Of a stretch of 50,404 nucleotides of DNA, positions 3,096 through 20,386 are shown piece by piece. The notes beneath the pieces were generated by a model. That model was not told where the DNA came from. It made no database searches and worked only from the letters and a program-made list of their open reading frames with translations. The stretch's first letter is position 1; each line of letters opens with the position of its first letter. The position numbers and the translations under genes are program-made. The stretch lies in contig NZ_JAMBOL010000022.1 in assembly GCF_023715605.1 (NCBI RefSeq), forward strand, positions 1-50,404, read 5' to 3'. The DNA comes from Halalkalibacter oceani. GTDB lineage: Bacteria > Bacillota > Bacilli > Bacillales > Bacillaceae_D.

Positions 3096-3149
3096 TTTAG
3101 ACAAACATTAGCATAGCTTAATCTTTCCTTTACATTCGTTCAGTATGAT
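3096..3149 (+). promoter_or_regulatory. Pho-box promoter of the SLH phytase-like gene
   Basis: Four hexamers resembling the PhoP-binding sequence TTNACA lie exactly 11 bp apart: TTTAGA (3096), ATTAGC (3107), TTAATC (3118), TTTACA (3129). A -10 box TATGAT lies at 3144-3149, nine bases after the last hexamer, and no good -35 box is present. The hexamers would span about -60 to -22, as in B. subtilis Pho promoters. The same layout recurs at 12650-12692 and 14374-14427. Confidence 0.65.
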
Positions 3150-3186
3150 GAAAACTGAAATATAAGGAAAGAAAGGAAAGAAAACA

Positions 3187-5355
3187 TTGAAAAAACTTTT
3201 AACAGGACTCACATTAGCAGGAACACTTTTATTCTCAGTTCAGCCTTATCATGTACTGGCGGAAGCACCACCATTTGTTCAATATGGTCAAACAGGACTT
3301 CACGTGTCACAGCTCGCCCAGTACGACAGTCGAGCGGGAGAAGGCGGGACGGAGATTCTTGCCTACGATGCTGCAAGTCAAAAAGCTTTTGTCACAAACG
3401 GGGCGGAAGCAGGGTTGGATATTTTGTCGTTTGCCGAGCTAACTTCCGGAGAGTTTCGCCAAATAGAATCAATCCGCCGTATTCATGTAGCTGATTTCGG
3501 TCTTGAGCAGGTGGAGGATATTACAAGTGTAGCTTCACACCCGAGTGAGGATCTCATTGCTTTGGCAGTTGTCAGTAATCCGAAGACAGATCCAGGCTAT
3601 ATTGTATTTTTAACGAAATCAGGCGATTATCTTACCCATGTTCAAGTCGGAGCACTGCCGGATATGGTGACGTTTTCGCCGGATGGTACGAAAGCGCTTG
3701 TCGCAAATGAAGGAGAGCCTAACGATGATTATAGTGTCGACCCGGAAGGATCAGTTTCGATCATTGATCTGACAGCCGGGGTAGCAGCCGAGAGTTCATT
3801 AAACGTGAATACGCTTCTGTTTGATGAAAAGCTGTTTGATGAAAACGTACGTGTTTCCTCAAAAGGCAGTGTAGAACAACAAATCGAACCTGAATACATT
3901 GTTGTCAGTGAGGACAGCAGCACGGCTTATGTAGCTTTGCAGGAAAATAACGCTGTGGCGATTATTGATTTACAAGCGGAGAAAGTAACAGCAGTTAAAG
4001 GATTAGGGGAAAAGGATCATTCGATTCCTGGTAATGAACTGGACGGGAAAGAGGATGGCGAAATCAATATTGAAAACCTGCCGTTACTTGGCTGGCGTAT
4101 GCCGGATGCGATTGATACTTTTAGCGTGAATGGCCAAACCTATATTGTGACTCCGAATGAAGGGGACGCCCGTGACTATGATGCCTATTCCGAAGAAGTG
4201 AAAATCGGCGAGATACTTGATCAAATTGAGTTAAATGCAGAGCATTATCAAGGATATTCACAAGAAGAGCTTGATGAACTCGTTGAAGCAGGACTACTTG
4301 AAAGCATGGAGGATACACTCGTTACAGCGGAGAATGGAAAAAATGATCAAGGTATTTATGAAGCTCTCTACTCTTTTGGTGGGCGAAGCTTTTCCATTTT
4401 TAACGCCGATACGATGGAACTGGTCTATGACAGTGGGGCTGAATTTGAACAGATAATGGCAGAAGCTATGCCTGAACATTTTAACACGACGAATGATAAG
4501 TTGCAGTTTGATGGGCGGAGCGATGCGAAAGGTCCTGAGCCGGAAACTGTTGTGACCGGGCAGATTGGCGATTCCATCTATGCTTTTATCGCCTTAGAGC
4601 GTTTTGGAGCAATTATGGTCTATGATGTGACAGATCCGGAAGCTTCCGAATTTGTGACGATGATTTCCAGCCGGGACTTTACTGTAGATGTTGGCGGAGA
4701 TGTCTCGCCGGAAGGCCTTGTTTTTATTGACGCAGCAGATAGTCCGACCGGATATCCACTCCTATCGGCGACCCATGAAATCTCAGGTACGGTGGCAGTG
4801 TATGAGATTCAAGAACAACTTGGGGAGCCGACGCCAATTCCTGATGTTGAGCAGGAACATGAGGCTTATTCATATATTATGGAATTGTTGGAGAGGGAAG
4901 TAATTGATGCCGGAGAATTTCGCCCAGCGGCGACTTTGACAAGAGAAGACCTGGTCGTAATGGTGAGTCGCGGGCTTGGGCTGGAGCCAAGTGATCAATC
5001 AGGAACGTTTACTGACGTTCATGGAGAAAATGCGTCGCTTATCCAAGCCGCTTATGAAGCCGGGATCGTGAATGGAACAGCCGATCATCTATTTGCGCCG
5101 GAGGAGTTTATTACAAGAGAACAAATGGCAGTCATTTTTACTAGAGCTTTTCACTATATAAACGAAGAAACAGTAGAAACAAGCGAAGTTGAATTTATGG
5201 ATGATGAGCAGATTAGTGGTTATGCGAAGGCCGCTGCTCAATATGCTGTTGATCTGGGTTGGATGAAAGCGACGGAAGAAGAGTTTCAGCCGAAAGCGAA
5301 TAGCTCACGGGCTGAAGCCGCGGAAATGATTTCCCTTTTTCTGAATGATTTGTAA
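3187..5355 (+). CDS. Secreted SLH-anchored choice-of-anchor I (phytase/esterase-like) protein
   Basis: A 722-residue exported protein. Residues 1-25 form a Sec signal peptide (KK, hydrophobic core, end near VLAEA). Residues about 35-545 resemble the choice-of-anchor I/esterase-like phytase beta-propeller family, with repeated blades and motifs such as VANEGEPNDDY, TPNEGDARDY and VSPEGLVFIDA. The C-terminal 170 residues carry three SLH domains (TREDLVVMVSRGLGL, FTDVHGENASLIQAAYEAGI, and the third near EFMDDEQISGYAKAAAQYAV), which bind cell-wall polymers. The start is TTG at 3187 after AAAGGAAAG. A phosphate-scavenging role is inferred from the family and the Pho-like promoter. Confidence 0.85.
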   Translation: MKKLLTGLTLAGTLLFSVQPYHVLAEAPPFVQYGQTGLHVSQLAQYDSRAGEGGTEILAYDAASQKAFVTNGAEAGLDILSFAELTSGEFRQIESIRRIHVADFGLEQVEDITSVASHPSEDLIALAVVSNPKTDPGYIVFLTKSGDYLTHVQVGALPDMVTFSPDGTKALVANEGEPNDDYSVDPEGSVSIIDLTAGVAAESSLNVNTLLFDEKLFDENVRVSSKGSVEQQIEPEYIVVSEDSSTAYVALQENNAVAIIDLQAEKVTAVKGLGEKDHSIPGNELDGKEDGEINIENLPLLGWRMPDAIDTFSVNGQTYIVTPNEGDARDYDAYSEEVKIGEILDQIELNAEHYQGYSQEELDELVEAGLLESMEDTLVTAENGKNDQGIYEALYSFGGRSFSIFNADTMELVYDSGAEFEQIMAEAMPEHFNTTNDKLQFDGRSDAKGPEPETVVTGQIGDSIYAFIALERFGAIMVYDVTDPEASEFVTMISSRDFTVDVGGDVSPEGLVFIDAADSPTGYPLLSATHEISGTVAVYEIQEQLGEPTPIPDVEQEHEAYSYIMELLEREVIDAGEFRPAATLTREDLVVMVSRGLGLEPSDQSGTFTDVHGENASLIQAAYEAGIVNGTADHLFAPEEFITREQMAVIFTRAFHYINEETVETSEVEFMDDEQISGYAKAAAQYAVDLGWMKATEEEFQPKANSSRAEAAEMISLFLNDL

Positions 5356-5395
5356 GGCTTCCTCTAAGGAAGGAAATTGAGTAAACAGGTAGGAA

Positions 5396-5440
5396 AATGG
5401 GGTGGTCAAAAGGGATGTTTTCCCTGATGATCACCCCATT
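5396..5440. terminator. Hairpin between convergent genes
   Basis: A strong inverted repeat (AATGGGGTG at 5396-5404 with CACCCCATT at 5432-5440) contains an inner AGGGA/TCCCT stem. It lies between the SLH gene and the convergent small gene at 5456-5605. The T-run is weak on both strands, so bidirectional termination is probable but not certain. Confidence 0.5.
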
Positions 5441-5455
5441 CATATTTAGAGACCA

Positions 5456-5605
5456 TTAGTCGTATTGATGTAAATATTCAAAGAACTGCTGCAGAAGTGG
5501 TACATCATCTGTAGCGATGAGGACTGGAAGAACTAACACAGCGAGTAACAGACCAACCGGTGTAAGTAACATCACCCGAAATGGATTCATCATTTTTTTT
5601 AGCAT
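5456..5605 (-). CDS. Small membrane protein (49 aa), unknown function
   Basis: A complete 49-codon gene on the minus strand. It starts at ATG 5605 after AAGGGGGAG at a good distance and stops at TAA 5458-5456. The predicted peptide begins MLKKMMNPFRVMLLTP, has one hydrophobic segment at about residues 12-31 (runs of Leu/Val) and ends in an acidic, aromatic tail (FFEYLHQYD). It lacks a lipobox. Codon structure, Shine-Dalgarno sequence, promoter and cre site together argue that it is real. I do not recognise the family. A single-span regulatory or accessory peptide for a membrane complex is possible but is speculation. Confidence 0.65.
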   Translation of the reverse strand: MLKKMMNPFRVMLLTPVGLLLAVLVLPVLIATDDVPLLQQFFEYLHQYD

Positions 5606-5658
5606 ACTGTTCTCCCCCTTTTTGTAAAAGTGAATGTTTTGTGAATTTTCTTGTTTAT

Positions 5659-5688
5659 ATCATAACATGTAAGCGCTATCATTATCAA
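5659..5688 (-). promoter_or_regulatory. Promoter with consensus cre (CcpA) site for the 49-aa gene
   Basis: On the minus strand a -35 TTGATA (5688-5683) and a -10 TATGAT (5664-5659) are separated by 18 bp. The spacer holds TGTAAGCGCTATCA at 5668-5681, which matches every position of the cre consensus TGWAANCGNTNWCA. A CcpA site between -35 and -10 normally represses, so carbon catabolite repression of the small membrane protein is predicted. Confidence 0.65.
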
Positions 5689-5733
5689 GTTTTTTGTACA
5701 TTTTGTGAATAAATCTTTTTGTTGATAAAAAGC

Positions 5734-5762
5734 TTGAAGTGATAAGCTCAATATGGTATTAT
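5734..5762 (+). promoter_or_regulatory. Promoter of the stand-alone 5S-tRNA unit
   Basis: TTGAAG at 5734-5739 and TATTAT at 5757-5762 are spaced by 17 bp, about 20 bases before the 5S gene. This gives the second 5S its own sigma-A-type promoter, needed because no 16S or 23S gene precedes it. Confidence 0.6.
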
Positions 5763-5781
5763 GGATCTTGTGTCAGAGACA

Positions 5782-5898
5782 GTCCGGTGGCGATAGCGAA
5801 GAGGTCACACCCGTTCCCATGCCGAACACGGTCGTTAAGCTCTTCAGCGCCGATGGTAGTTGGGGGCTTCCCCCTGTGAGAGTAGGACGTTGCCGGGC
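5782..5898 (+). rRNA. 5S ribosomal RNA (copy 2, detached from 16S/23S)
   Basis: A complete 117-nt 5S gene identical to 461-577. It is not part of a local 16S-23S-5S operon: upstream are a protein gene on the other strand and a promoter-like sequence at 5734-5762. No terminator follows directly, so it is probably cotranscribed with tRNA-fMet at 6346-6419. Identity with copy 1 indicates concerted evolution or recent duplication. Confidence 0.97.
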
Positions 5899-5976
5899 TG
5901 TTCTGCATAAAAGATGAACAAGTTGGCCATACTTTCATTAAGGTCATACATGTTACATAATGCAGTTGAGAGAATA

Positions 5977-6345
5977 AGTAAGCTCGACGCATGAAAGCTT
6001 CCTTGAATAATCGGGAAGAGGAGAGTTCTAATCTTCTATGTAAAAGCATCATTCAATAACTTTTTAACGACGCGGGGTGGAGCAACGAGCAAAGCATCCG
6101 CCGAAACAGCGACGAGTAAGCTCGACGCATGAAAGCGTCATTGAACAATCAAGAAGAGGAGAGCTTGTCACTTCCTTGAGAAACAGCATCCGAATACTTA
6201 ATAGCGACGCGGGGTGGAGCAACGAGCAAAGCATCCGCCGAAACAGCGACAAGTAAACTCGACGCATGAAAGCTTCCTTGAATAATCGGGAAGAGGAGAG
6301 TTCTAATCTTCTATGTAAAAGCATCATTCAATAACTTTTTAACGA
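5977..6345 (+). repeat. Tandem repeat of about 138 bp carrying tRNA-fMet 5' stumps
   Basis: There are three successive units: 5977-6114, 6115-6251 and 6252-6345. Each begins with AGTAA(G/A)CTCGACGCATGAAAGC. Units 1 and 2 end with CGACGCGGGGTGGAGCA plus a 30-base tail rich in GCAAAGCATCCGCC. The first 14 bases of the tRNA (CGCGGGGTGGAGCA) recur at 6071-6084 and 6208-6221. Unit 3 runs directly into the intact tRNA. Units 1 and 3 are nearly identical over their first 90 bases, while unit 2 differs in the middle. No protein gene is credible here. Confidence 0.85.
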
Positions 6346-6419
<74 letters not shown>

Positions 6420-6423
6420 TACC

Positions 6424-6454
6424 AAAAACCGAAGCGGATTGTTTCGGTTTTTTT
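6424..6454 (+). terminator. Terminator of the 5S-tRNA-fMet unit
   Basis: An inverted repeat, AAACCGAA/TTCGGTTT with an 8-10 base loop, is followed by a run of T immediately downstream of the tRNA. Confidence 0.85.
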
Positions 6455-6565
6455 CTTATGTTCGGACAGGAAATAGGCATTTCGCATGAAATCGGATAAA
6501 CTAGAAGAGAGATGAGGTTCATAAATTTTGAAAAGTTCTAGCCTGGGTAAAGGAGAGTCGTAAAG

Positions 6566-7555
6566 ATGGATGAATTTGCTTTCATCAACAGTATTATGCC
6601 GAGTCAGGCTCAGCAGCCTTCTCTAATCAAAGGGATCGGTGATGATGCCGCTGTGTACAAAACTTCAGGGCAGGCGGACCAGGTTGTCTGTGTAGATACT
6701 CTCGTCGAGGGGGTCCATTTTCGGCGTGATACGCTCTCCCCTTATCAGATTGGTGTAAAAGGACTCGCCAGCAATATTAGCGATCTCGCTGCAATGGGGG
6801 CGACGCCGGCCTTTTATCTTGTATCGATAGCGGTTCCTGAATCATGGAATGAAAAAGAACTGCGTGAGATTTATCAGGGCATGGAGGAACTGGCAGCGGA
6901 ATATAGAATGGATTTAATCGGCGGTGATACGGTTTCTACTCCTGCGGCGCTTGTGCTGACGATCACAGTAATTGGTCAGGTGGAGCGCACAAAGGCCAAG
7001 TATCGTCATGATGCACGGGCGGGAGATCTTGTGTTTCTGACAGGCTATGTCGGATCTTCAGCAGCCGGGCTGGAACTGTTGCTGAAAAGGGGCAGAACGG
7101 GGAGTTTTTCGGAGAAGGAGCTGGCATTGGTGAAAGCTCATCAGGAGCCTTCTCCTCATGTCGAGCAAGCTGGTCTGTTCGCGGGATTTGCCGGACGAGT
7201 GGCGTTAAATGATATTAGTGATGGGGTCGCTAGTGAAGCGTATGAAATAGCAGAAGCGAGTGGTGTGTCGATTGTCATTGGCGCTGATTCCCTTCCGTTT
7301 CATCCTGGCATGGACGAGCATTCCTTTCAACAACGGCTTGACTGGGCGCTGTATGGCGGGGAGGATTATGTTCTGCTCGGAGCAGCAGCGCCCGCTGATG
7401 TAAAGGAATTAAAGGAACGTTTTTCGGCCAGGCAGCTCTCTTTTTTTGAAGTGGGACATATCGAAGAAGGAGAGCCGGGTGTTTTTTTAAGGCACAACGG
7501 TCAGCTGAAAAAACTGGAGAAGCAAGGCTATAATCATTTTCAAAAGCGCAGGTGA
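6566..7555 (+). CDS. thiL: Thiamine-monophosphate kinase ThiL
   Basis: A 329-residue ATP-dependent kinase that turns thiamine monophosphate into thiamine diphosphate in the cytosol. The AIR synthase-like fold is recognisable: GIGDDAAVY near residue 22 binds metal and nucleotide, VCVDTLVEGVHFRRD near 42 is the substrate/metal segment, and DLIGGDTV near 117 and ALNDISDGVASEAYEIAEASG near 211-230 are typical ThiL motifs. The length is normal for the family. It opens the thiL-tsaE-tsaB-rimI-tsaD cluster, the same order as next to rrnE in B. subtilis. ATG 6566 follows AAAGGAGAG. Confidence 0.96.
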   Translation: MDEFAFINSIMPSQAQQPSLIKGIGDDAAVYKTSGQADQVVCVDTLVEGVHFRRDTLSPYQIGVKGLASNISDLAAMGATPAFYLVSIAVPESWNEKELREIYQGMEELAAEYRMDLIGGDTVSTPAALVLTITVIGQVERTKAKYRHDARAGDLVFLTGYVGSSAAGLELLLKRGRTGSFSEKELALVKAHQEPSPHVEQAGLFAGFAGRVALNDISDGVASEAYEIAEASGVSIVIGADSLPFHPGMDEHSFQQRLDWALYGGEDYVLLGAAAPADVKELKERFSARQLSFFEVGHIEEGEPGVFLRHNGQLKKLEKQGYNHFQKRR

Positions 7556-7560
7556 AGAAG

Positions 7561-8016
7561 ATGCAGGAATGGACAGTGGTGACCCGCAGTCCTGATGAAA
7601 CCGCGGGATTGGCGGAGCGGCTAGGTCAGCTGGTGGCGGCAGGTGATGTCATTACGCTGGCAGGAGATTTAGGAGCCGGAAAAACGAGCTTTACAAAAGG
7701 GCTGGCCAAAGGTCTTGGCGTAAAGGGAGTCGTAAATAGTCCGACCTTTACCATCATTAAAGAATATCAAGGGCGGTTACCGCTCTATCATATGGATGTG
7801 TACCGAATGGAGGACGAAGCGGAGGAGCTCGGCTTAGAGGAATATTTTTATGGTGAAGGCGTTTCGGTGGTTGAGTGGCCGACAAGGATTGAAGAGCAGT
7901 TGCCAGAGAATCATCTCAGTATTGCGATCTATCATCTGGATGAGACGAGCCGAAAGTTGACGGTAACAGCGTCAGGAGAGCGAGAGCAGCAGCTCGGTAA
8001 GGAGTGGCTGGAATGA
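7561..8016 (+). CDS. tsaE: tRNA t6A biosynthesis ATPase TsaE
   Basis: A 151-residue P-loop protein that joins TsaB-TsaD to make threonylcarbamoyladenosine at tRNA position 37. Visible are the Walker A segment GDLGAGKTSFTKGLAKGLG near 36-54, the conserved VNSPTFTIIKEY near 58-69, and HMDVYRMEDEAEELGLEEYF with VEWP. The start is taken at ATG 7561, just after AGGTGA. A GTG at 7552, overlapping the thiL stop, is the alternative. Its 3' end overlaps tsaB, so translation is coupled. Confidence 0.95.
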   Translation: MQEWTVVTRSPDETAGLAERLGQLVAAGDVITLAGDLGAGKTSFTKGLAKGLGVKGVVNSPTFTIIKEYQGRLPLYHMDVYRMEDEAEELGLEEYFYGEGVSVVEWPTRIEEQLPENHLSIAIYHLDETSRKLTVTASGEREQQLGKEWLE

Positions 8017-8726
8017 GTAAACAATTAGCAATTGATACATCTTCCTTTATTATGGGAGTGGCGCTGACGGATGATGAACGAACGGTTGCCGAGCTGACGA
8101 CGAATCTGAAAAAAAATCATTCGCTTCGTTTAATGCCGGCGATTGAGCAGATGATGAAAGAAGCGGAGATTTCTCCCCGTGAGCTTGAGAAAATCATCGT
8201 CGCCAAGGGACCAGGTTCGTATACCGGGGTGAGAATCGGTGTCACGACAGCGAAAACGATGGCGTGGTCGCTCGGCATTCCGGTCGTTGGCGTATCCAGT
8301 TTGGCGGTGCTGGCCCAAGCGGGGCGTTTCTTTCACGGTGTAATCGTTCCTCTGATGGATGCGCGGCGCGGTCAGGTTTATACCGGGAGCTACATAGCGG
8401 AAGGGGTGGAAGTCAGACCGCGGGGAGAAGATCGTCTCCTGATGCTGACAGATTGGCTGGAATGGTTGAGTAAGCAGGAGCAGGATGTGCTGTTCATCGG
8501 TCAGGATGTGGCGTTGCACAAAGAGACAATCGTCGAACGCTTAGGGGAACGGGCCTGTTTTGTGCCGGGAACTGCTCAATTACCGCGGCCGGCTGAGCTT
8601 GCGAGATTAGGCCGCCATCTTCAAGGAGAGTCGTCCCCTCATGCGCTCGTTCCTGATTATTTGCAGCTGGCGGAGGCGGAAGCGAAATGGCAGAAAGCCC
8701 AGATGGAAAAGGATCCAAAAGCATGA
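8013..8726 (+). CDS. tsaB: tRNA t6A biosynthesis scaffold TsaB
   Basis: A 237-residue ASKHA-fold protein that binds TsaD and helps form the t6A complex. It begins MSKQLAIDTSSF, and the GPGSYTGVRIGVTTAKTMAWSLGIPVVGVSSL segment near 68-98 is the most conserved part of TsaB. The catalytic metal-binding histidines of TsaD are absent, as expected. ATG 8013 overlaps the tsaE stop (ATGA) and lies eight bases after AAGGAG. The C-terminal DYLQLAEAEAKW is also typical. Confidence 0.95.
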   Translation: MSKQLAIDTSSFIMGVALTDDERTVAELTTNLKKNHSLRLMPAIEQMMKEAEISPRELEKIIVAKGPGSYTGVRIGVTTAKTMAWSLGIPVVGVSSLAVLAQAGRFFHGVIVPLMDARRGQVYTGSYIAEGVEVRPRGEDRLLMLTDWLEWLSKQEQDVLFIGQDVALHKETIVERLGERACFVPGTAQLPRPAELARLGRHLQGESSPHALVPDYLQLAEAEAKWQKAQMEKDPKA

Positions 8727-9181
8727 TTGAACAAGAACGGGAACTCATTCGCTTTATGACAGAGGACGATATTAAGGACGTAATGGACGTGGAGCGGGAC
8801 GCTTTTTCCGTTCCGTGGGATCCGGCTGTTTTTCATAATGAATTAACGTCCAATCAATTTGCTCATTATCTTGTATATGAATATGAAGAGCGTGTCATTG
8901 GGTATTGCGGGCTTTGGGTGGTGATGGACGAAGCTCAGATTACAAACATCGCCATCCATTCGCGCTTTCGCGGGCAAAAGAGAGGTGAAAAGCTGCTCAG
9001 TTTTGCGATGGCTTTCGCGAAACAACTGGGAGCGGCGACCTTATCACTGGAGGTTAGGGTATCAAATGAAGTGGCGCAAAATCTTTATCGGAAGCTAGGG
9101 TTTGAGCCAGGCGGAATTCGAAAAAATTATTATGCGGATAACTTGGAAGACGCATTAGTCATGTGGGTGAAGCTAATATGA
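8723..9181 (+). CDS. rimI: Ribosomal protein N-acetyltransferase RimI (GNAT)
   Basis: A 152-residue GNAT acetyltransferase of the RimI type, which acetylates the N-terminal alanine of ribosomal protein S18 using acetyl-CoA. Visible are [14 protein letters not shown], the strand [20 protein letters not shown] (acetyl-CoA-binding R/QxxGxG/A variant), [31 protein letters not shown] and the closing EDALVMW. The start was moved to ATG 8723, which overlaps the tsaB stop in ATGA and has AAAAGGA nine bases before it. The ATG at 8687 lies inside tsaB and is less likely. Confidence 0.93.
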
Positions 9182-10185
9182 AAACGGAAGAATTGATCCT
9201 TGCAATCGAGACGAGCTGTGATGAAACATCGGCCGCTGTGATCAAAGGAGGGACAGACATTGTTAGTAACATTGTCTCCTCGCAAATTGAGAGCCATAAA
9301 CGTTTTGGCGGCGTCGTGCCGGAAGTGGCGTCACGTCATCATGTTGAACAGATTACACTGATCGTCGAGCAGGCAATGAAGGAAGCGCAGGTGAGCTTTT
9401 CCGACCTTGATGCAGTGGCGGTGACGGAGGGGCCGGGGCTTGTTGGAGCGCTGTTAATCGGTGTGAACGCAGCAAAAGCGATTGCCTTTGCTCGGGGGCT
9501 TCCTTTAATCGGCGTTCATCATATCGCCGGACATATTTACGCGAATCAGCTTGTGCGGCCGTTAACGTATCCATTGCTTGCGCTCGTTGTCTCGGGCGGC
9601 CATACCGAGCTTGTTTACATGGAAAAGGAAGGAAGCTTTACGATTATTGGTCAAACCCGGGATGACGCGGTTGGCGAAGCGTATGATAAGGTGGCAAGAA
9701 CATTGGGCTTGCCTTATCCGGGCGGGCCGCATATTGATCGGCTGGCGGCTGCGGGAGAAGCGACGATTTCCTTTCCGCGTGCCTGGCTTGAGAGTGATTC
9801 CTACGATTTCAGCTTCAGCGGGCTGAAATCAGCTGTCATTAATACGCTTCACAATTACAGGCAGCGCGGTGAAGAGGTAAAAGTCGAGGACGTCGCCGCA
9901 AGCTTCCAGCAAAGCGTGATTGATGTGCTCGTCGGCAAGACAAAGCGGGCGGTTGAGGAGCTGGAGGTTAAGCAGCTTCTGTTGGCAGGAGGGGTAGCGG
10001 CCAACAAAGGATTGCGTGCTGCATTGGAGAAAGAATTTTCCTCTTCGGTTGAACTGATCATTCCCCCGCTCGAGCTGTGCACCGACAATGCGGCGATGAT
10101 AGGCGCGGCGGCCAGTATAAAATGGAAGCAGCAGCGTTTCTCAGGCTATGAACTAAACGGAAATCCAGGTTTATCATTAATGTAG
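9178..10185 (+). CDS. tsaD: tRNA N6-threonylcarbamoyltransferase TsaD (Gcp)
   Basis: A 335-residue catalytic subunit that transfers the threonylcarbamoyl group to A37 of ANN-decoding tRNAs. It starts [14 protein letters not shown]. The metal-binding [10 protein letters not shown] motif (two histidines) is near residue 111, followed by [34 protein letters not shown] and the C-terminal [10 protein letters not shown] and CTDNAAMIG. All catalytic features are present. ATG 9178 overlaps the rimI stop. A terminator at 10203-10245 and a DnaA-box cluster follow. Confidence 0.97.
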
Positions 10186-10202
10186 CGATAAATATTTGTT
10201 TA

Positions 10203-10246
10203 AAACCATTTAAGGGTGTAAAGGCTATCCTTAAATGGTTTTTTTA
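10203..10246 (+). terminator. Terminator of the thiL-tsaD operon
   Basis: A perfect 13-bp inverted repeat (AAACCATTTAAGG and CCTTAAATGGTTT) with a 13-base loop ends in a T-rich tail, 17 bases after the tsaD stop. Confidence 0.9.
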
Positions 10247-10281
10247 TGCTAGTAAAGTGGGAAAAAGGGACTGCGGCCGAG

Positions 10282-10466
10282 TTGTGCACAGTATTTATCC
10301 ACATCATTGTGAGTAATGGGGATAAGCTCTGAAAAAACGATAAAATCGAAGGATGAGCTGTGGTTAATTAAAATGTGGATAAAGCTGTTCATAATGTGGA
10401 TAAATAAAAGGATAGTAGGAAATACGCTGTTTTTTATGTGAATAAGTTTGTGGGTAATGTGGATAT
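10282..10466. promoter_or_regulatory. DnaA-box cluster downstream of tsaD (gcp locus)
   Basis: The 313-bp gene-free interval after tsaD is packed with matches to the DnaA box TTATNCACA. Matches without mismatch are 10295-10303 on plus (TTATCCACA), and 10374-10382, 10395-10403 (both TGTGGATAA) and 10437-10445 (TGTGAATAA) on minus. One-mismatch sites lie at 10282, 10308, 10317, 10359, 10449 and 10458. B. subtilis has a functional DnaA-box cluster at the same gcp locus that lowers initiation by titrating DnaA. The role here is inferred from that. No origin genes are nearby, so it is unlikely to be oriC. Confidence 0.8.
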
Positions 10467-10498
10467 GTCAGAAAATTAGGTCGAAATGAGGAAGGACA

Positions 10499-12643
10499 AT
10501 GTCGAAAAAATCGCTTATTGGATGGCTATGCGTCATCTTCTTGATTTGCCCTGTGGATACGTGGGCGGCAGAATCAGAAGCGAAGCAGGTCGTTGTCATG
10601 ATTGTACCCGGCCTTTCCTTTCATGAAGCAGGCTGGTTTCTTGAGCAGGATGACTCATCTATTTGGGACAAGGCGGCGATGGGGGCGATGAATATCCGCC
10701 CTGACGGCCCTTATTCTTATTTGAATAATATGATGACGTTAAGTTTAGGAGTGCGAACAGTCGGCGTTAAAGGATGGAACAGCTACCAGCTTGGCGAAAG
10801 CTTTCAGGAGATGGATGTTGCTCAGTGGATGTCCCAGGTCGGTTGGCGGACGGCAGGTGGAAATCTGTTTCACCCTTATTATCCACAACTTAAGAAAAAG
10901 AACACGGCTGTGACGACCGGTTTATTAGGGCAAATGCTTGAAGATGCTGGGGTTGAACGGCGGGTTTTTGGTCATAGCGATACGACTGCTGAACAGCTGC
11001 GTTACGGTTCCTTGCTCATTATGAATCAACAAGGGGAAGGTGAGGGAAGCTTACTCGAAGCTGTGCGCGCTAATCCACAGGCTCCGTCCGGTGTTGAGAT
11101 GAATCCGGCTTTTCTTATGGAGCAGTTGGCGGAAGCAAAAGACCGGCGGCAATTAAGCGTAATTGAATGGGGCGACTTACACCGGCTCTATGAGCAGAAA
11201 CCTTTTATCGAGGAGCAGCTTTTTGCGGATAAACGCCAGCAGCAATTACAGCGGTTAAGCAGCTTTTTACAGGAGCTGGAAGAGAGCGGCTATGCGGAGG
11301 AAATCTGGTTATTGGCACCGATGATGAATGAGGACGCTTATCGCGAGAAACAGCAGCTGGCCCCGGTGTTTTATTGGGGAGAGAAGAAGGGAGAGATGCT
11401 TACGTCGTCGACGACGAAGCAGCCGTATTTGGTTAGCAGTCTTGATGTCATCCCGACGCTGCTTGACTCTTTCGGCCTATCAAGCGGTGAAGTGCATCTT
11501 ACCGGAGAGATCATCCGCCAGGAGCGGAGCGACGGCGGAAATATTTCCAAGGCTGTCGATGAAATGGTCCTTATTTATAAAAGTCGCGCCAATGTGTTAT
11601 CAACCTATATTTCCTTTCTCGTTATCGCCCTGATTACAGCGGGAGGGTTCAGTTTCATCACAGAAGGATCGAAACAGATGTACCGCAAGCTAATCCGTCT
11701 CCTGCTCCTTTCGATGCTCTGGTCGCCGTTTTGGTTTTTGGCGTTGGCCCGGCTGACACCGTATACAGGGGTGTGGGGCTTTATCATCCTGTTAATTATT
11801 AGTTCGATTACATGTGGATATCTCGTGGATCAAACAAGAATTCCGATTTTCTGGACGGGTCTTGTCACCTTTTTGCTGCTGACGTGCGATGTTGCACTCG
11901 GCTCTCCGTTTATGCAGCGCTCGTATTTAGGCTATGATCCCATCATTGGGGCGCGCTATTACGGCATGGGAAATGAGTTTGCCGGGGTTTATTTGATCGT
12001 TGCTTTAATGGTGTTGATGCCGTTATTATCTTATCCCCGCAAATGGCTGGCGCTTACCGGGGCGGGAGTGCTGGCGATCGTGGTGATTCTCGTGCTCGGA
12101 AAAAGCACGCTGGGGACGAATGCCGGGGCGACTTTATCAGCGATGATTACATTCGCTTTCCTGCTATCTCGCCTCTGTCAATCGCGTTTGTCAGCGGGGA
12201 GGTTTGCGATAATGACGCTCGCTGTGCTGGCCGGTGGCGTCCTGCTCTTGTTTATTCTGCAGCTAACGGGTGAACGGACTCATATTGGCTCGGCCTTTGA
12301 GCGGCTTTTACAGGGGGATGTAAGGTTCATTATCGACTTGATCCAGAGGAAGCTGGCAATGAACTTCAAGCTGTTTAAGCATTCCAACTGGACACAGCTG
12401 TTAGTAACAAGCTATTTGCTCGGGGCGATTGTGCTGTGGAGAAAGCGGCGTCAGTTAAAAAGAGCTGATATGCAGCTTTTTATGCAGGCCGGAGTCGTCG
12501 CTTCGTTCTCTTTGCTGCTTTTTAATGATTCCGGCGTCGTGGCGGCGGCTACTTCGATGTTCTGTGTTGTATCGAGCTATTACTTCTGGCTGGTTAAATC
12601 TGCAAAAGAGCCGGAAGCTGGAAAGGATAACAGCTTTTTATAA
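10499..12643 (+). CDS. Large membrane protein with a degenerate phosphatase/sulfatase-like exterior domain
   Basis: A 714-residue protein that I do not recognise by name. It has an N-terminal signal peptide (LIGWLCVIFLICPVDTWAA) and an exported domain of about 345 residues. That domain has loose alkaline phosphatase/sulfatase-superfamily traits: VVVMIVPGLS at the position of the usual VDG motif (metal Asp missing), and SLDVIPTLLDSFGL near its end. About 11 membrane helices follow from residue 365, with a conserved-looking loop GYDPIIGARYYGMGNEFAG. ATG 10499 follows GAGGAAGG. The promoter region coincides with the DnaA-box cluster, so DnaA might influence it. Enzymatic activity is doubtful because key ligands are not visible. 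Confidence 0.7.
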   Translation: MSKKSLIGWLCVIFLICPVDTWAAESEAKQVVVMIVPGLSFHEAGWFLEQDDSSIWDKAAMGAMNIRPDGPYSYLNNMMTLSLGVRTVGVKGWNSYQLGESFQEMDVAQWMSQVGWRTAGGNLFHPYYPQLKKKNTAVTTGLLGQMLEDAGVERRVFGHSDTTAEQLRYGSLLIMNQQGEGEGSLLEAVRANPQAPSGVEMNPAFLMEQLAEAKDRRQLSVIEWGDLHRLYEQKPFIEEQLFADKRQQQLQRLSSFLQELEESGYAEEIWLLAPMMNEDAYREKQQLAPVFYWGEKKGEMLTSSTTKQPYLVSSLDVIPTLLDSFGLSSGEVHLTGEIIRQERSDGGNISKAVDEMVLIYKSRANVLSTYISFLVIALITAGGFSFITEGSKQMYRKLIRLLLLSMLWSPFWFLALARLTPYTGVWGFIILLIISSITCGYLVDQTRIPIFWTGLVTFLLLTCDVALGSPFMQRSYLGYDPIIGARYYGMGNEFAGVYLIVALMVLMPLLSYPRKWLALTGAGVLAIVVILVLGKSTLGTNAGATLSAMITFAFLLSRLCQSRLSAGRFAIMTLAVLAGGVLLLFILQLTGERTHIGSAFERLLQGDVRFIIDLIQRKLAMNFKLFKHSNWTQLLVTSYLLGAIVLWRKRRQLKRADMQLFMQAGVVASFSLLLFNDSGVVAAATSMFCVVSSYYFWLVKSAKEPEAGKDNSFL

Positions 12644-12649
12644 GGAAAC

Positions 12650-12692
12650 TAAACATTCCCTTAATAATCACTTAACAATGTAACCGTATAGT
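12650..12692 (+). promoter_or_regulatory. Pho-box promoter of the metallophosphoesterase-glpP unit
   Basis: Three PhoP-like hexamers lie 11 bp apart: TAAACA (12650), TTAATA (12661), TTAACA (12672, matching the consensus exactly). The -10 box TATAGT lies at 12687-12692, nine bases after the last hexamer, and no -35 box is seen. The spacing is identical to the promoters at 3096-3149 and 14374-14427. Transcription would start near 12699 and run into the leader terminator at 12741. Confidence 0.65.
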
Positions 12693-12740
12693 GAACGTAA
12701 GAAGTAAATAAACAAAGACCATTAAGGTAGAGAATAGGAG

Positions 12741-12786
12741 AAACCTTGCTTACTGTCTGCGAAGGACAGTAGGAGAGGTTTTTTCA
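12741..12786 (+). promoter_or_regulatory. Leader attenuator, probable GlpP target 1
   Basis: An intrinsic terminator lies inside the transcribed leader: AAACCT and AGGTTT form the base, TACTGTC and GACAGTA the upper stem, with an internal loop TGCT opposite GGAG and then a T-run. The same layout and internal-loop motif (CCTTGC opposite GGAG) occurs at 14468-14534. Since glpP is encoded downstream, GlpP binding that prevents termination when glycerol-3-phosphate is present is the likely mechanism. Confidence 0.65.
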
Positions 12787-12889
12787 TTTTTTTGAAAGAG
12801 AAGCCGTTCAAAAAACGAAAAAACCACCGACAGATTTTGGATTGTTGGACAAGCCGATGTTCCATGATGATTGAAACGAAGAGAGGAGA

Positions 12890-13738
12890 ATGAAAGTGAA
12901 ACTGGCACTTATCGGGGATTTGCACTATCCGGACATTGATGCAGCTATTGACGGGTTGGCTGAAGCACGGGAAGTCTTTTACAAAAGGTTTATCGATCAC
13001 TTTCTTCAAGTTGAGGCGGATTTGTATCTTTCACTTGGTGATTTGACCAATTACGGCCACTCAAGTGAATTGGAGGATATTTATCGTCTGATTAACCATC
13101 ATCAAAAAAACTTCATTCACGTTCTAGGAAATCATGATCTTTACGCGCAGCCGCGGGAAGCGGTGCTGACGATTTCGGGTCAAAAGCGCTATCACACGAT
13201 TGAGACCGATGAAGCTGTCCTCGCTTTTCTTGATACGGCGAAAGAAATGGATTATGAAGATTGGGGCGGCTGGCTGGACGAAGAGCAGCTTGATTGGTTA
13301 GAAGAGGTTGTCGCTGAATCGGGGACGAAGCCGCTACTTGTCTTTGCCCATCATCCGGTTTATCAAACGACGAAGCGCTCTGATCATGAAAAAGGGTCGA
13401 TTCATCCGGAGATCGATGTCTGGTCGATTTTGGAGAAAAAGCGCGGAATCGGAATGTATTTCAATGGTCACACCCATATTGATTCGATTGTGAAAAAGGA
13501 AAATTGGACCTTTGTCCAAGTGTCGGCTTGTCTTGATCAGCATGCGCTGCGTCTGATTGAGCTTACGCCGGAAGAAATCATTGTCTCGGCGGTGGATGTA
13601 GAGGATCTTGTCATGGCGGAAGCCGCTCCTGTTGTCTACAAGCATATGAATCACTTCACCCATCAAACCGATGTACGGGGAGAAGCGATTGATCGTGAAT
13701 GCCGGGTGTCGCTCTTGCCGGTTGTTGATGTAAGCTAA
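12890..13738 (+). CDS. Calcineurin-like metallophosphoesterase (possible glycerophosphodiesterase)
   Basis: A 282-residue cytosolic protein with all metallophosphoesterase motifs: GDLHYPD near residue 8 (Asp-x-His), GDLTNYG near 52, GNHDLY near 81, FAHHPVYQ near 152 and GHTHID near 196. It resembles class III phosphodiesterases (CpdA/GpdQ type). Placed before glpP and the ugp-like operon, hydrolysis of glycerophosphodiesters is a reasonable guess but unproven. ATG 12890 lies very close to GAGAGGAG, so the in-frame GTG at 12896 may be the true start. It follows a Pho-type promoter and an attenuator. Confidence 0.88.
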   Translation: MKVKLALIGDLHYPDIDAAIDGLAEAREVFYKRFIDHFLQVEADLYLSLGDLTNYGHSSELEDIYRLINHHQKNFIHVLGNHDLYAQPREAVLTISGQKRYHTIETDEAVLAFLDTAKEMDYEDWGGWLDEEQLDWLEEVVAESGTKPLLVFAHHPVYQTTKRSDHEKGSIHPEIDVWSILEKKRGIGMYFNGHTHIDSIVKKENWTFVQVSACLDQHALRLIELTPEEIIVSAVDVEDLVMAEAAPVVYKHMNHFTHQTDVRGEAIDRECRVSLLPVVDVS

Positions 13739-13771
13739 ACCTTTTTAAAGCTTCAAGAAAGGGGAAAAGGA

Positions 13772-14380
13772 ATGAACGGGACAAAGGATATCTTTACGCG
13801 CATAGCAGAGACGAAGAAAATCGCCGCGGTGAAAACGCCGAAGCATATTGATCTTGTATTGAAGCTGCGTGAGCAAATCGGCAGCGTCTTTCTCTTAACA
13901 GGCAACATAAATGTGATTAAGCATTATGTCGAGGTGCTAATTGAAGCCGGCCTGCCGACATTCGTCCATATCGAGAAGATCAAAGGATTAAGCAATGATA
14001 GCGACGGGCTTGATTTTATCGCCAACTATGTCAGACCAACAGGCATCGTCACAACAAAGCCGAGTTTGATCGCTTCTGCTAAGAAGCGTCAGCTTTTGAC
14101 GGTGCAACGAATCTTTATGATTGACTCCGAGATTCTCGTCAACCTTCCCGTGCAGCTTGAGAGAAACAAGCCTGACATTATTGAAATTATGCCGGCCCGG
14201 ATTCCTGAAATCCTCGCGGAGATTAAAACCTTTACAAAGGATGTCCCGATTATTACCGGCGGGCTGCTGACGGAAAAGGAGCATGCCGAGGCGGCTCTCG
14301 CCCATGGGGCGTTGGCTGTTTCGACCTCTAATCGGGATGTGTGGAAAGCGGACCTGGCCGGGGCGGTCGCTTATTCATAA
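13772..14380 (+). CDS. glpP: Glycerol-3-phosphate-responsive antiterminator GlpP
   Basis: A 202-residue GlpP-family RNA-binding regulator. In B. subtilis GlpP with glycerol-3-phosphate binds leader mRNA of glp genes and prevents termination. Family blocks are clear: FVHIEKIKGLSND near 62-74, GLDFIANYVRPTGIVTTKPSLIASAKK near 78-104, QRIFMIDSEIL near 111, PDIIEIMPARIPEI near 133, IITGGLLTEKEHAEAALAHGALAVSTSN near 154-181. It is 33 bp downstream of the metallophosphoesterase, and the ugp-like operon follows. It is probably autoregulated through the leader at 12741-12786. Confidence 0.93.
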   Translation: MNGTKDIFTRIAETKKIAAVKTPKHIDLVLKLREQIGSVFLLTGNINVIKHYVEVLIEAGLPTFVHIEKIKGLSNDSDGLDFIANYVRPTGIVTTKPSLIASAKKRQLLTVQRIFMIDSEILVNLPVQLERNKPDIIEIMPARIPEILAEIKTFTKDVPIITGGLLTEKEHAEAALAHGALAVSTSNRDVWKADLAGAVAYS

Positions 14381-14427
14381 AAGCTTTATCTTTCTTTCAT
14401 GTTCTCTTAATATTTGAAAGCTATGAT
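14374..14427 (+). promoter_or_regulatory. Pho-box promoter of the ugp-like operon
   Basis: Four hexamers at an 11-bp period overlap and follow the glpP stop: TTCATA (14374), TTTATC (14385), TTCATG (14396), TTAATA (14407). The -10 box TATGAT lies at 14422-14427, nine bases after the last hexamer. The layout equals that of the other two Pho-like promoters. Phosphate control of ugp genes is well known in E. coli; here it is inferred from the sites. Confidence 0.65.
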
Positions 14428-14467
14428 GACCCTAACAAGTAAATAGAATAGTTGGTGCGATGAGCAG

Positions 14468-14534
14468 AGAGACCTTGCCGAATAGAGATGAATGATTCTT
14501 TCATTCTGTCTATTGGAGCGAGGTCTCTTTTTTT
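14468..14534 (+). promoter_or_regulatory. Leader attenuator, probable GlpP target 2
   Basis: A strong terminator lies between the promoter at 14374-14427 and ugpB. AGAGACCT pairs with AGGTCTCT, AATAGA with TCTATT, and ATGAATGA with TCATT at the top, followed by seven T. The internal loop TGCCG opposite GGAGCG mirrors the loop at 12747-12775. It can also serve as the glpP terminator. The shared motif suggests GlpP-dependent readthrough. Confidence 0.65.
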
Positions 14535-14588
14535 AGAGTCTAAGGCAAGGAAGAGGAAAATAAAAGCAAATAAAAGGAGATGGATCAA

Positions 14589-15902
14589 ATGAAAACCAGA
14601 TTGTCGATGTTGCTCGTTTCAGTAATGGTGATGCTTGTGTTAGCTGCTTGTCAATCGGCCGATGATACGGCCTCCGATGCTTCGGCTAGTGGAGATGAGG
14701 GGGCTCAGGGCGGAGAGGGAGACAAAATTGAAATCACATACTGGTACGCCTGGGGAGATAAAATCGGTGAAAATAACGAGAATCTAGTTAAGATGTTTAA
14801 CGAGTCGCAGGATCGCATCCACGTCACAGCTGAATATCAAGGCTCCTATGATGATTTGCACGCGAAAACACAAGCGGCGTTTGCTGCCGGGAATGCGCCG
14901 GAAGTGACGCAAAATGAAATTGCCTCCGTGGCGATTTTTGCCAACTCAGGAATGACGGAAGACTTAACGCCATTTATCGAGCGCGATGATATTGATATGG
15001 ATGACTTTATCCCAGGTCTAATGGGGAATTCCTACGTTAATGAACGCTTATATGCACTGCCGTACTTACGCAGTACGCCAATTCTTTATTTGAATGCGAC
15101 CCTGCTTGAAGAAGCCGGGCTTGATCCATCTGGTCCAAAAACATGGGAAGAATTTGAAGAGTATGCGAGAGCTTTGACGGTTGAAGGCGAGCGGGTTGGG
15201 ATGACGTTGCCTGTAAACATTTGGTTCTATGAGGCCTATGTCGCGCAAAGCGGAGGCCAAATGATTGCCGACGATGAGCAGTCTGTCGCCTTTAACAGTG
15301 AAGCAGGAGTCGCGCCGGTTGAATTTTGGAAAAGGATGAACGATGAAGGGATTATTAAAATTCCGACAGGGGATGAAGCCGGGGACACGGCAAAGCAGGA
15401 TTTTGCGAATGGGCGTGCGGCCATGACCTTCAGTTCGACGGCCGACCTTTCCTACTGGCTGGCAATGGCTGATGAGCAGGGCTTTGAGTTGAATACAACC
15501 TTCATGCCGGCCAATGAAACTTACGGGGTGCCGACAGGTGGTTGTAACTTAGTCATGACTGCCGGGCTGGATGAGGAAAAGCAGGAAGCTGCGTGGGAAT
15601 TTATTAAATGGATGACCGCGACGGAGCAGACGGTTTATGCGAGTGAGTATACAGGATATCTTCCGAGCCGTTCTTCCGCCGTTGAAAGTGATGTGATGCA
15701 AAGCCTGTATCAGGAGTTTCCACAATATGAAGTCGCTGTCGAGCAGCTTGAGTATGCGAGACCGCGTCCAATGCTCGATCAATACCCGGAAATCTCAAAG
15801 ATTCTGCAAGATGAAATTACACGCTCGCTCATTAATGAGGATAGTAGTCCCGAAGACGCGTTGAATACCGCGGCGGAAAAGGCTAATCAGTTATTGCAGT
15901 AA
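14589..15902 (+). CDS. ugpB: Glycerol-3-phosphate/glycerophosphodiester-binding lipoprotein (UgpB-like)
   Basis: A 437-residue solute-binding lipoprotein of an ABC importer. The start was placed at ATG 14589, nine bases after AGGAG, giving the signal peptide MKTRLSMLLVSVMVMLVLAAC with the lipidated Cys at residue 21. An acidic linker follows, then family-1 extracellular binding protein motifs (ITYWYAWGDKIGENNENLVKMFN, VTQNEIASVAIFANSGMTEDLTPF, ALPYLRSTPILYLNATLLEEAGLD). Carbohydrate-binding relatives are similar; the glycerol-phosphate substrate is inferred from GlpP, UgpQ and the Pho-like promoter. It opens the operon that ends with ugpQ. Confidence 0.85.
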   Translation: MKTRLSMLLVSVMVMLVLAACQSADDTASDASASGDEGAQGGEGDKIEITYWYAWGDKIGENNENLVKMFNESQDRIHVTAEYQGSYDDLHAKTQAAFAAGNAPEVTQNEIASVAIFANSGMTEDLTPFIERDDIDMDDFIPGLMGNSYVNERLYALPYLRSTPILYLNATLLEEAGLDPSGPKTWEEFEEYARALTVEGERVGMTLPVNIWFYEAYVAQSGGQMIADDEQSVAFNSEAGVAPVEFWKRMNDEGIIKIPTGDEAGDTAKQDFANGRAAMTFSSTADLSYWLAMADEQGFELNTTFMPANETYGVPTGGCNLVMTAGLDEEKQEAAWEFIKWMTATEQTVYASEYTGYLPSRSSAVESDVMQSLYQEFPQYEVAVEQLEYARPRPMLDQYPEISKILQDEITRSLINEDSSPEDALNTAAEKANQLLQ

Positions 15903-15980: not shown

Positions 15981-16817
15981 ATGCACCCGTTTCAAACGAG
16001 TAAAGTGGCGATTTTTGATTTAGATGGAACCCTTTATCAGGAATATTCCTTCTTGGAGCGTTATATCACCTATTTATTAAAAGACAAACTGTCCGAGAGA
16101 GAGGTTCACCAGACGGTCAACGAGGCGTATCAGATTTTAGCAGGCGAGCACCCGATTCAATTAGGACATTTCCTCGATCGGGAGAAGAAAATTGTTTTTC
16201 TCTATAAGGAAGAGAGGATCGCAAAAGCTTTTTCCTGGGAGGGAGTGGAGCAAACGGTAACGTCCGACCTTGTTAATTTGGAAAGCGAGCAGCTTGCCTA
16301 TCTCGGTGATCCGTGGTGTGTGGCGAATTTCTATATTGAAAAGCATCAAATTGCTCAAGAGAAGTGCGTGGCGGCTTTTAATCAAGTAAGGAAAGAAATG
16401 CTGCAATCGCCGTTTTCGATTGAACGCTGCGAGCCGTTATTTACCGCGATTGAAAAGCTGGAGGTGGAAAGAAAAGTGTTCATGACGAATACACCGTCCC
16501 CCTCCGGCGAAGAGTTTGTCAACTATTTGAACATCGGCGGGTTGTTTGATGAATACATGTATGACGCGAAAAAACCGCTTGGAATGAGCGCCTATGTGAA
16601 ACATTTACTGGAAGAGGGCTACAAGCCTGAACATATTCTCTCAATTGGCGACAATCCGTGGAATGACCTGTATCCTGTTAAAGCGGTCGGAGGAAAGACG
16701 TGCCTGATTACGCGCTATACGCATCATGGGTTATTGATGGAACCGGATGTTACTGTAAAAACGGTTGACCAATTAGCCGAAGTACTTACTGCGAGAACGA
16801 TTCAGATCACAGGGTAA
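15981..16817 (+). CDS. HAD-family hydrolase (possible phosphatase)
   Basis: A 278-residue haloacid dehalogenase-like protein. Motif I is IFDLDGTLYQEY near residue 11 with the nucleophile and acid/base aspartates; motif II is near MTNTPSPSG; motif III/IV is ILSIGDNPWNDLYPVKAVGGKT near 217-238. A large alpha-helical cap lies between. Its position inside the importer operon, between ugpB and ugpC, suggests dephosphorylation of an imported phosphate ester such as glycerol-3-phosphate, but the substrate is unknown. ATG 15981 follows GGAGG by eight bases. Confidence 0.8.
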   Translation: MHPFQTSKVAIFDLDGTLYQEYSFLERYITYLLKDKLSEREVHQTVNEAYQILAGEHPIQLGHFLDREKKIVFLYKEERIAKAFSWEGVEQTVTSDLVNLESEQLAYLGDPWCVANFYIEKHQIAQEKCVAAFNQVRKEMLQSPFSIERCEPLFTAIEKLEVERKVFMTNTPSPSGEEFVNYLNIGGLFDEYMYDAKKPLGMSAYVKHLLEEGYKPEHILSIGDNPWNDLYPVKAVGGKTCLITRYTHHGLLMEPDVTVKTVDQLAEVLTARTIQITG

Positions 16818-17920: not shown

Positions 17921-17924
17921 TTAC

Positions 17925-18794: not shown

Positions 18795-18808
18795 GAAAGG
18801 AGATGCTT

Positions 18809-19657: not shown

Positions 19658-20386
19658 ATGAAAATTATTGCACACCGGGGTTGGTCCGGACAAGCGCCTG
19701 AAAATACGCTGGCCGCTTTTCGGCTGGCATTGGACGAGCCGTTCATTACCGAAGTGGAGCTGGATGTCCACCTGTCGAAGGATGGCATTCCGGTCGTCAT
19801 TCATGATCATACATTAGAGCGGACAACGAATGGCAGAGGCGCCGTCCGCGATTATACGTTCTCCGAGCTGCAGCAGCTTACTGCCGGCAGCTGGTTCAGC
19901 CAGGAATTCATGGCGGAGAAGATTCCTTCTTTAGAGCAGGTATTTCAAATGTTCAAAGGCCGGACGAGTCGTCTCGTGATCGAGCTCAAGCAAACCGCAG
20001 ACCATTATCCAGGATTGGAGGAAGCCGTTGTGAAGCTGATCCAGTCCTATCAGCTCGAGCGTCAGGTTACCGTCATTTCGTTTGACCACATTAGTGTGAA
20101 GACGGTTAAAGACGCTGATGCGGCGATTGAAACAGGGCTCGTTTACCTTGGCCGGCCGACTCTTTTAGTTGAGCAGGCGCGCTATACAGGAGCAAGCTTT
20201 ATTTCGATGCATTACGCCTATATAACGGAATCATTGATTAATGAGCTAATTCAGGCGGGGATCAAGATCGGCGTCTGGACAGTGGATGATGAGGACACGC
20301 AGAACAAGCTCGCAAGCTTTCACGACGAGCTGCGGGTTACGACAAACTACCCCGAGCGCATCATCGCGCTTCAGGCTGCGCACTAA
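19658..20386 (+). CDS. ugpQ: Cytoplasmic glycerophosphodiester phosphodiesterase (UgpQ-type)
   Basis: A 242-residue GDPD-family enzyme that splits glycerophosphodiesters into glycerol-3-phosphate and an alcohol. Catalytic marks are IAHRGWSGQAPENTLAAF near residue 4-21 (His-Arg and Glu-Asn), EVELDVHLSKDGIPVVIHDHTLERTTNG near 32-59 (metal Glu/Asp and the second His), and the later VIELKQ and VWTVDDEDT. There is no signal peptide, so the substrate must be imported, which fits its place as last gene of the ugp-like operon. Confidence 0.93.
   Translation: MKIIAHRGWSGQAPENTLAAFRLALDEPFITEVELDVHLSKDGIPVVIHDHTLERTTNGRGAVRDYTFSELQQLTAGSWFSQEFMAEKIPSLEQVFQMFKGRTSRLVIELKQTADHYPGLEEAVVKLIQSYQLERQVTVISFDHISVKTVKDADAAIETGLVYLGRPTLLVEQARYTGASFISMHYAYITESLINELIQAGIKIGVWTVDDEDTQNKLASFHDELRVTTNYPERIIALQAAH

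Follow-up and report, generated by a model that had tools for sequence, protein, structure and literature searches.

Pho-type promoters and putative GlpP-type leaders in a probable phosphate-ester scavenging cluster of Halalkalibacter oceani

PhoP-activated promoters of Bacillus subtilis contain tandem hexamers with an 11-bp period, which end about one turn before the -10 box, and they have no -35 box. The present study deals with a stretch of 50,404 nucleotides of Halalkalibacter oceani (the window; contig C39 of a 4.47-Mb genome, G000), in which promoters of this type lie in front of a gene for an SLH-anchored surface protein, a metallophosphoesterase-glpP unit and an operon for a Ugp-like importer. 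Another kind of switch is known from glpD, glpFK and glpTQ of B. subtilis. These have GlpP-controlled leaders, in which an inherent terminator stands between the promoter and the gene and GlpP answers to glycerol-3-phosphate (PMC9604022). In two further papers glpQ is placed in the PhoP-2 group (PMC7732839) and described as PhoPR-dependent (PMC6232261). The glpTQ operon thus receives both a phosphate-starvation and a glycerol-3-phosphate input, so that both switches, and also their combination at one phosphate-ester gene, glpQ, are already known. The E. coli ugp operon is a Pho-controlled importer and phosphodiesterase for glycerol phosphates, with Pho boxes plus a separate cyclic AMP-CRP promoter (PMC4415409).

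The locus studied here resembles each of these systems in part. No difference in layout was seen between the window promoters and B. subtilis promoters of the pst, tuaA and phoA type; it is the controlled genes that differ, as an SLH surface protein and a ugp-type ATP-binding cassette (ABC) importer are found here. The window shares with the B. subtilis GlpP leaders the order of elements ahead of the gene: a promoter, then a leader, then an inherent terminator, which is predicted here. Unlike there, the window leaders lie behind a Pho promoter and before the ugp-like operon and the glpP unit, and none was found at the organism's own glpD and glpK. Where glpTQ consists of the GlpT permease and the phosphodiesterase GlpQ, the window combines an ABC importer with two phosphodiesterases and a HAD hydrolase and includes the antiterminator gene itself, and where E. 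coli ugp has its additional CRP promoter, the window has a predicted antitermination lock. At the level of titles and abstract openings, no ugp operon or glpP gene with a GlpP leader following a Pho promoter was met, but this coverage of the literature is partial and is not evidence that the arrangement is unpublished. Our data indicate that the cluster probably serves the scavenging of phosphate esters and is controlled by two locks in series, in which PhoP would act before GlpP in the manner of an AND gate.

Three Pho-type promoters and their conservation

All three Pho-type promoters are confirmed. TTNANA-like hexamers recur every 11 bp with a fixed 9 bp to the -10 box in each of the three (Table 1), and the sites, hexamers, period, gap, -10 boxes and missing -35 were all located where the initial annotation had put them. 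The best -35 candidate has three of the six letters of TTGACA when spacings of 15-19 bp are allowed. Period 11 with gap 9 was the optimum among 42 period/gap combinations, giving the three promoters a mean score of 22.4 against 15.8 for the next combination. The SLH site is the weakest of the three and its second hexamer scores -3.4.

The sites were scored with a matrix derived from pstS promoters. PstS was sought in 60 genomes and was matched at the chosen threshold in 38; the upstream regions of 30 of the 40 pstS matches were examined. Four hexamers at an 11-bp period, followed by 9 bp and a -10 box, were found in 29 of the 30 (L094 does not fit), including the window genome's own pst operon promoter, which has the layout of the window promoters and scores 37.0. 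Training was done with 20 of the 29 fitting promoters; those of the window genome and its sister (L072, L073) were left out, as were seven judged by eye to be near-duplicates (L074, L075, L079, L081, L083, L085, L086). With this matrix the window sites take ranks 1, 2 and 3 among 100,798 positions on both strands, with 26.1 for the metallophosphoesterase-glpP unit (-10 at 12687), 24.9 for ugp (14422) and 16.3 for the SLH gene (3144). Scoring against random controls had been proposed by the initial annotation, and all three sites exceed the highest score of six window-sized Markov-1 sequences, which is 11.7. A Markov-2 sequence of roughly background size reached 14.6. When only three hexamers are used the SLH site falls to rank 5 and its score is reached 0.33 times per Markov-1 window.

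The same-genome background comprised 797,879 bp and was non-random: 19 stretches of contig C36, 20 of C58 and one of C22, the last one picked because phoP sits there. In this background a score of at least 16.3 was reached at 5 positions (4 places, one of them within an open reading frame, ORF) and of at least 24.8 at one, which falls inside the phoP-chosen stretch. The proportional expectation for window-sized DNA is about 0.3 positions at or above 16.3, and three were observed. PhoP-type activation of the three promoters is a well-supported prediction. The genome has a response regulator-sensor kinase pair adjoining mdh on C22, presumably the phoPR position; a Pho box 5' of phoP itself was not found, the best score there being -2.4.

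The cluster with this type of GlpP is present in all five genomes that hold the type: the window genome, G007 (L009), G016 (Bacillus solitudinis, L010), G022 and G053. The metallophosphoesterase gene is missing from the stretch of G053 that was examined. G007, with an SLH protein 83% identical to that of the window, is treated as a sister species because the genome set has one genome per species. The Pho score 5' of ugpB is 24.9 in the window genome, 24.9 in G007, 32.1 in G016, 29.8 in G022 and 11.2 in G053. Upstream of the metallophosphoesterase gene it is 26.1 in both the window genome and its sister, and 23.8 and 23.0 in two further genomes. The SLH gene gives 16.3 in the window and 19.2 in the sister species, while seven other homologues, some with uncertain starts, give 21.7, 26.0, 29.4, 12.7, -1.4, 8.6 and 12.2. 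In 240 shuffles of twelve of these upstream regions the 99th percentile was 13.2 and the maximum 14.6. Measured against these shuffles, conservation is strong for the two glp/ugp promoters, whereas that of the SLH promoter extends to three of the seven others.

Leaders between promoter and first gene

Both glp/ugp promoters are followed by a block, AAGTAAATA, close to where the RNA is expected to begin, and then by a predicted hairpin, which lies between promoter and first gene and runs out into T residues. The hairpin before the metallophosphoesterase gene has a folding energy of -26.9 kcal/mol (z -5.7) and that before ugpB of -38.7 kcal/mol (z -7.3). The SLH promoter lies only 38 nt 5' of the start codon, which leaves no room for such a hairpin in that transcript. 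The block starts 9 nt past the last -10 base in both window leaders and in those of the sister species, G016 and G022; G053 has it too, with an unclear -10. It occurs 6 times in the 1.6 million bases of background, counting both strands, and the block together with the hairpin is kept before ugpB in all five genomes with this GlpP. From its sequence AAGTAAATA is likely the counterpart of AAGTTAATA in glpD leaders, at which GlpP would be expected to work as antiterminator.

In an alignment of nine leaders the lower stem, AGAGAGACCTC/GAGGTCTCTTT, has standard pairs in 97 of 98 cells (99.0%), and both sides have changed in 3 of its 11 pairs. Two sister pairs account for four of the nine leaders, a relatedness which inflates the shuffle control, and two leaders precede glpD-like ORFs, in G015 and G011. 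The hairpin-only alignment A3 was used; A1 and A2 had a misaligned 3' arm. At gathering thresholds Rfam reports rRNA and tRNA in the window and no leader family.

A covariance model of the hairpin, R1, gives 69.9 bits to the leader before ugpB and 32.6 bits to the leader before the metallophosphoesterase gene, both being training members, and its maximum in the same-genome background is 19.0 bits. R1 yielded 28 matches in 16 of 40 genomes. Twelve loci were viewed. Five of them precede glpD-like ORFs and the other seven, two of which are in the window genome (on C31 and C102), do not. The five leaders before glpD-like ORFs are in G003, G008, G044, G039 and G038, and none of them was in the training set; compared by eye, they have blocks similar to AAGTTAATA and GGTTGGAGA and a GAGAGACC hairpin in common. 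In G003, G008 and G038 the leader lies 65-110 nt 3' of a glpP match. It should be noted here that glpD in the relatives was called by eye from N-terminal letters, and the window genome's own glpD by family model. The Pho score does not exceed 10.4 in the 250 bp before each of seven glpD-like leaders.

Table 1. Features of the cluster; positions are those of the window.
Feature	Position	Strand	Evidence
Pho-type promoter of SLH gene	3096..3149	+	Four hexamers, 11-bp period (3096 TTTAGA, 3107 ATTAGC, 3118 TTAATC, 3129 TTTACA); 9-bp gap; -10 TATGAT at 3144
Surface protein, choice-of-anchor I domain and SLH anchor, 722 aa	3187..5355	+	Pfam
Pho-type promoter of metallophosphoesterase-glpP unit	12639..12692	+	Three good hexamers within 12650-12677 (12650 TAAACA, 12661 TTAATA, 12672 TTAACA), poor fourth TATAAG at 12639; 9-bp gap; -10 TATAGT at 12687
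AAGTAAATA block near expected RNA 5' end, metallophosphoesterase-glpP unit	12702..12710	+	Sequence
Putative GlpP-type conditional terminator hairpin before metallophosphoesterase gene (GGAGAAACC ... GAGGTTTTTT)	12737..12785	+	Fold, R1
Metallophosphoesterase	12890..13738	+	Distantly like PDB 2dxl/3d03
GlpP, glycerol-3-phosphate-responsive antiterminator family	13772..14380	+	PF04309, 180.9 bits against a cut-off of 27
Pho-type promoter of ugp-like operon	14374..14427	+	Four hexamers (14374 TTCATA, 14385 TTTATC, 14396 TTCATG, 14407 TTAATA); 9-bp gap; -10 TATGAT at 14422
AAGTAAATA block near expected 5' end of ugp RNA	14437..14445	+	Sequence
Putative GlpP-type conditional terminator hairpin before ugpB (GAGAGACCT ... 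AGGTCTCTTTTTT)	14467..14533	+	Fold, R1
UgpB-like glycerol-3-phosphate-binding protein	14580..15902	+	Best PDB matches named glycerol-3-phosphate-binding proteins
HAD-family hydrolase, possibly phosphatase	15981..16817	+	Family match
UgpC-like ATP-binding protein	16850..17920	+	Family match
UgpA-like permease	17850..18794 (ORF as listed)	+	Family match
UgpE-like permease	18803..19636	+	Family match
Glycerophosphodiester phosphodiesterase	19658..20386	+	Family match

Two proposed serial locks and other explanations

The first lock would be PhoP, which on binding to the tandem hexamers 9 bp before the -10 box could start transcription at low phosphate, and the SLH gene would have this lock alone. 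The leader RNA of both other units would then meet the predicted terminator hairpin at about nucleotides 35-100, and the polymerase would stop there unless GlpP with glycerol-3-phosphate acts on the leader. Judged by homology, the Ugp-like importer would take up glycerol-3-phosphate or its diesters, the metallophosphoesterase and the glycerophosphodiester phosphodiesterase would release glycerol-3-phosphate, and the HAD enzyme may release phosphate. Glycerol-3-phosphate could thereby be the signal that a supply of esters exists and open both leaders. As it would also open the leader before glpP itself, a positive feedback loop would result. The initial annotation had read the three units as one local phosphate-starvation regulon. 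That reading stands in so far as Pho-type promoters precede all three units and have counterparts in other species. Phosphate starvation alone is probably not sufficient, because in two of the three units the RNA has a hairpin of the GlpP-leader type ahead of the first gene. Nor is the set closed, since high-scoring sites occur at the pst operon and elsewhere in the genome, and further ORFs and RNA genes stand between the first promoter and the other two.

If this is true, the cell avoids building an importer for esters that are absent: starvation would give permission and the substrate would give confirmation, in successive steps of one transcript. It would be a natural AND gate made of two portable parts, in which a carbon-use regulator has been given over to the supply of phosphorus. 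A Pho box with a GlpP leader behind it would also be a simple search pattern for ester importers in other relatives of Bacillus.

A number of observations weigh against two serial locks. In G016 and G022 the Pho promoter of the metallophosphoesterase-glpP unit lies only 36-39 nt 5' of the start codon without such a leader, and the layout for autoregulation of glpP was therefore seen only in the window genome and its sister. The ugpB score of G053 is poor, although 24.1 is reached upstream of its glpP. UgpB, C, A and E have Ugp models as their best NCBIfam matches yet stay under the cut-offs, hence the term Ugp-like, and the substrate of the importer is assigned by homology only. R1 scores close to that of the metallophosphoesterase leader occur at places that precede neither glpD nor ugp (27.5 bits at 33034 in the window, 30.0 at C31:71496, 33.7 at L162 in G050), so that for the identity of this leader the 5' block and the position count no less than the hairpin. 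The whole-genome R1 search scored 150 of 1549 candidates and missed the metallophosphoesterase leader, although it is a training member; further GlpP targets may thus exist.

The hairpins could also merely end the upstream genes, whose stop codons are at 12643 and 14380. Only the Pho lock would then matter, the hairpins would be ordinary terminators of the ORF at 10499-12643 and of glpP, and ugp RNA would arise by leakage. They start 94 and 87 nt past these stop codons, as ordinary terminators may. However, in both cases a promoter lies between the stop codon and the hairpin, so the hairpin stands in the path of every RNA begun at that promoter. In their 5' blocks and in the letters of the stem the leaders are, moreover, like those before glpD-like ORFs in five genomes, and the arrangement before ugpB is kept in all five genomes with this GlpP, which makes ordinary termination a quite unlikely account.

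Serial control by PhoP and GlpP also depends on what binds the hexamers. The genome has 24 OmpR-type C-terminal domains above the Pfam cut-off and PhoP is the predicted binder, so another regulator of this family with a similar 11-bp periodic site could be acting. It is highly improbable, as the promoter of pst, which is typically controlled by PhoP, fits the same matrix at 29 of 30 loci and most of the downstream genes suit phosphorus supply. Doubt about the SLH promoter carries somewhat more weight: the site at 3144 might be a chance or weak one, which would leave only the two glp/ugp promoters under Pho control. Its low score with a negative second hexamer and its rank with three hexamers speak for this, as does the fact that four of the seven homologues beyond the window species and its sister stay under the shuffle maximum. 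On the other side, the site is kept in the sister species with a higher score, and homologues of three other genera have the scores of 21.7, 26.0 and 29.4; a chance site is thus unlikely on balance.

Genes of the cluster, GlpP in other lineages and further sites

The window contains rRNA and a tRNA, the SLH gene, other ORFs and a 714-aa ORF, followed by the metallophosphoesterase gene, glpP, ugpB, the HAD gene, ugpC, ugpA, ugpE and the glycerophosphodiester phosphodiesterase gene. Other ORFs, one 5S rRNA and one tRNA separate the first promoter from the other two. Two 5S rRNA genes of equal score, at 462-577 and 5783-5898, flank the SLH gene. The 714-aa ORF (10499-12643) stands immediately 5' of the second Pho promoter and has no family match in Pfam (E up to 1e-8) or NCBIfam (E up to 0.001). 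The SLH protein had been called phytase-like, a label which has to be dropped: Pfam at E up to 10 gives only PF22494 (choice-of-anchor I) and PF00395 (SLH). The metallophosphoesterase matches PDB entries 2dxl and 2zo9, with 3d03 as a further entry, which are named phosphohydrolase and which we take to be the glycerophosphodiesterase GpdQ. GlpP resembles PDB 3kts and 1vkf, named glycerol uptake operon antiterminator proteins or related, and is identical to GlpP of H. oceani P106, the closest named relative found. The true start of ugpA is probably about 75 bases later than listed, because its counterparts elsewhere have 289 aa.

PF04309 has one hit in the window genome, which is the glpP gene of the cluster, whereas G016 and G022 hold this type together with a second GlpP. 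No GlpP-type leader was found at the genome's own glpD (C36) and glpK (C36:63905), by eye or by R1 at E up to 1, and in this genome GlpP seems no longer to serve glpD or glpK. In a tree of 30 rows, a subset of the GlpP matches, the window type is a clade of five with support 100/100. The nearest group comprises G015, G021, G044, G057 and G059, with weaker support at the fork (81/73). In G015, G044 and G059 glpP is the last gene of an operon of binding protein, ATPase, permease and a further gene, which in G015 looks by eye like a HAD enzyme. G044 and G015 have a leader that looks GlpP-like by eye (20.2 bits by R1 in G044; G015 is not among the matches listed), and a Pho site of at least 14 was not found at these two operons. 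G059 has a Pho box of 22.3, and a hairpin can be made out by eye ahead of its first gene. The order in G014 is different again: HAD (by eye), GlpP, UgpC, A, E, B and glycerophosphodiester phosphodiesterase (named from their similarity to the window proteins). Its Pho box scores 23.7, and the hairpin before its first gene, GGGTGGAGA...GAGAGAACCC with a short run of T, was likewise read by eye. Such operons in two other lineages speak for the two locks. Against this, R1 at E up to 1 omits the hairpins of G014 and G059, whose GlpP nature is a by-eye reading.

It is a tentative possibility, which may well not hold, that a lineage of GlpP left glycerol catabolism and became a private second lock of phosphate-starvation importers. 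Coupling of GlpP and its leader to a Pho promoter would have happened repeatedly, in operons that differ in gene order. In the window species GlpP would drive its own synthesis and could make scavenging all-or-none in each cell, and aborted leaders would pile up as short RNAs in starved, ester-free cells.

By-eye GlpP-like leaders without a Pho box were also seen at L062:4159-4218 and in L060 (14501-14800), before a second type of importer operon ending in glpP. Terminator-like hairpins with a GGGAAACCCC 5' arm and a likely ribosome-binding site immediately after occur at 33034-33090 in the window and at L153:1501-1557 (C31 of the window genome). The former was rejected as a GlpP leader in spite of its R1 score, as its GGGAAACCCC stem stands before a short ORF. 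By their sequence these hairpins are possibly attenuators of another kind.

Some Pho-type sites were seen elsewhere in the window genome. The top background score, 27.8, belongs to L121:10184-10237 (C22, + strand), just 3' of phoR and ahead of a Band 7/SPFH gene. At L124:17086 (C58, - strand) a site of 22.4 has its -10 box starting 25 nt 5' of the start codon of a gene (PF04392) for an ABC substrate-binding protein. A site of 24.9 at L055:17131 (C28, - strand), a few kb from the pst operon, falls at the 5' end of an ORF for a methyl-accepting chemotaxis protein, whose true start is probably 3' of the site, and could be a hint of taxis under phosphate starvation.

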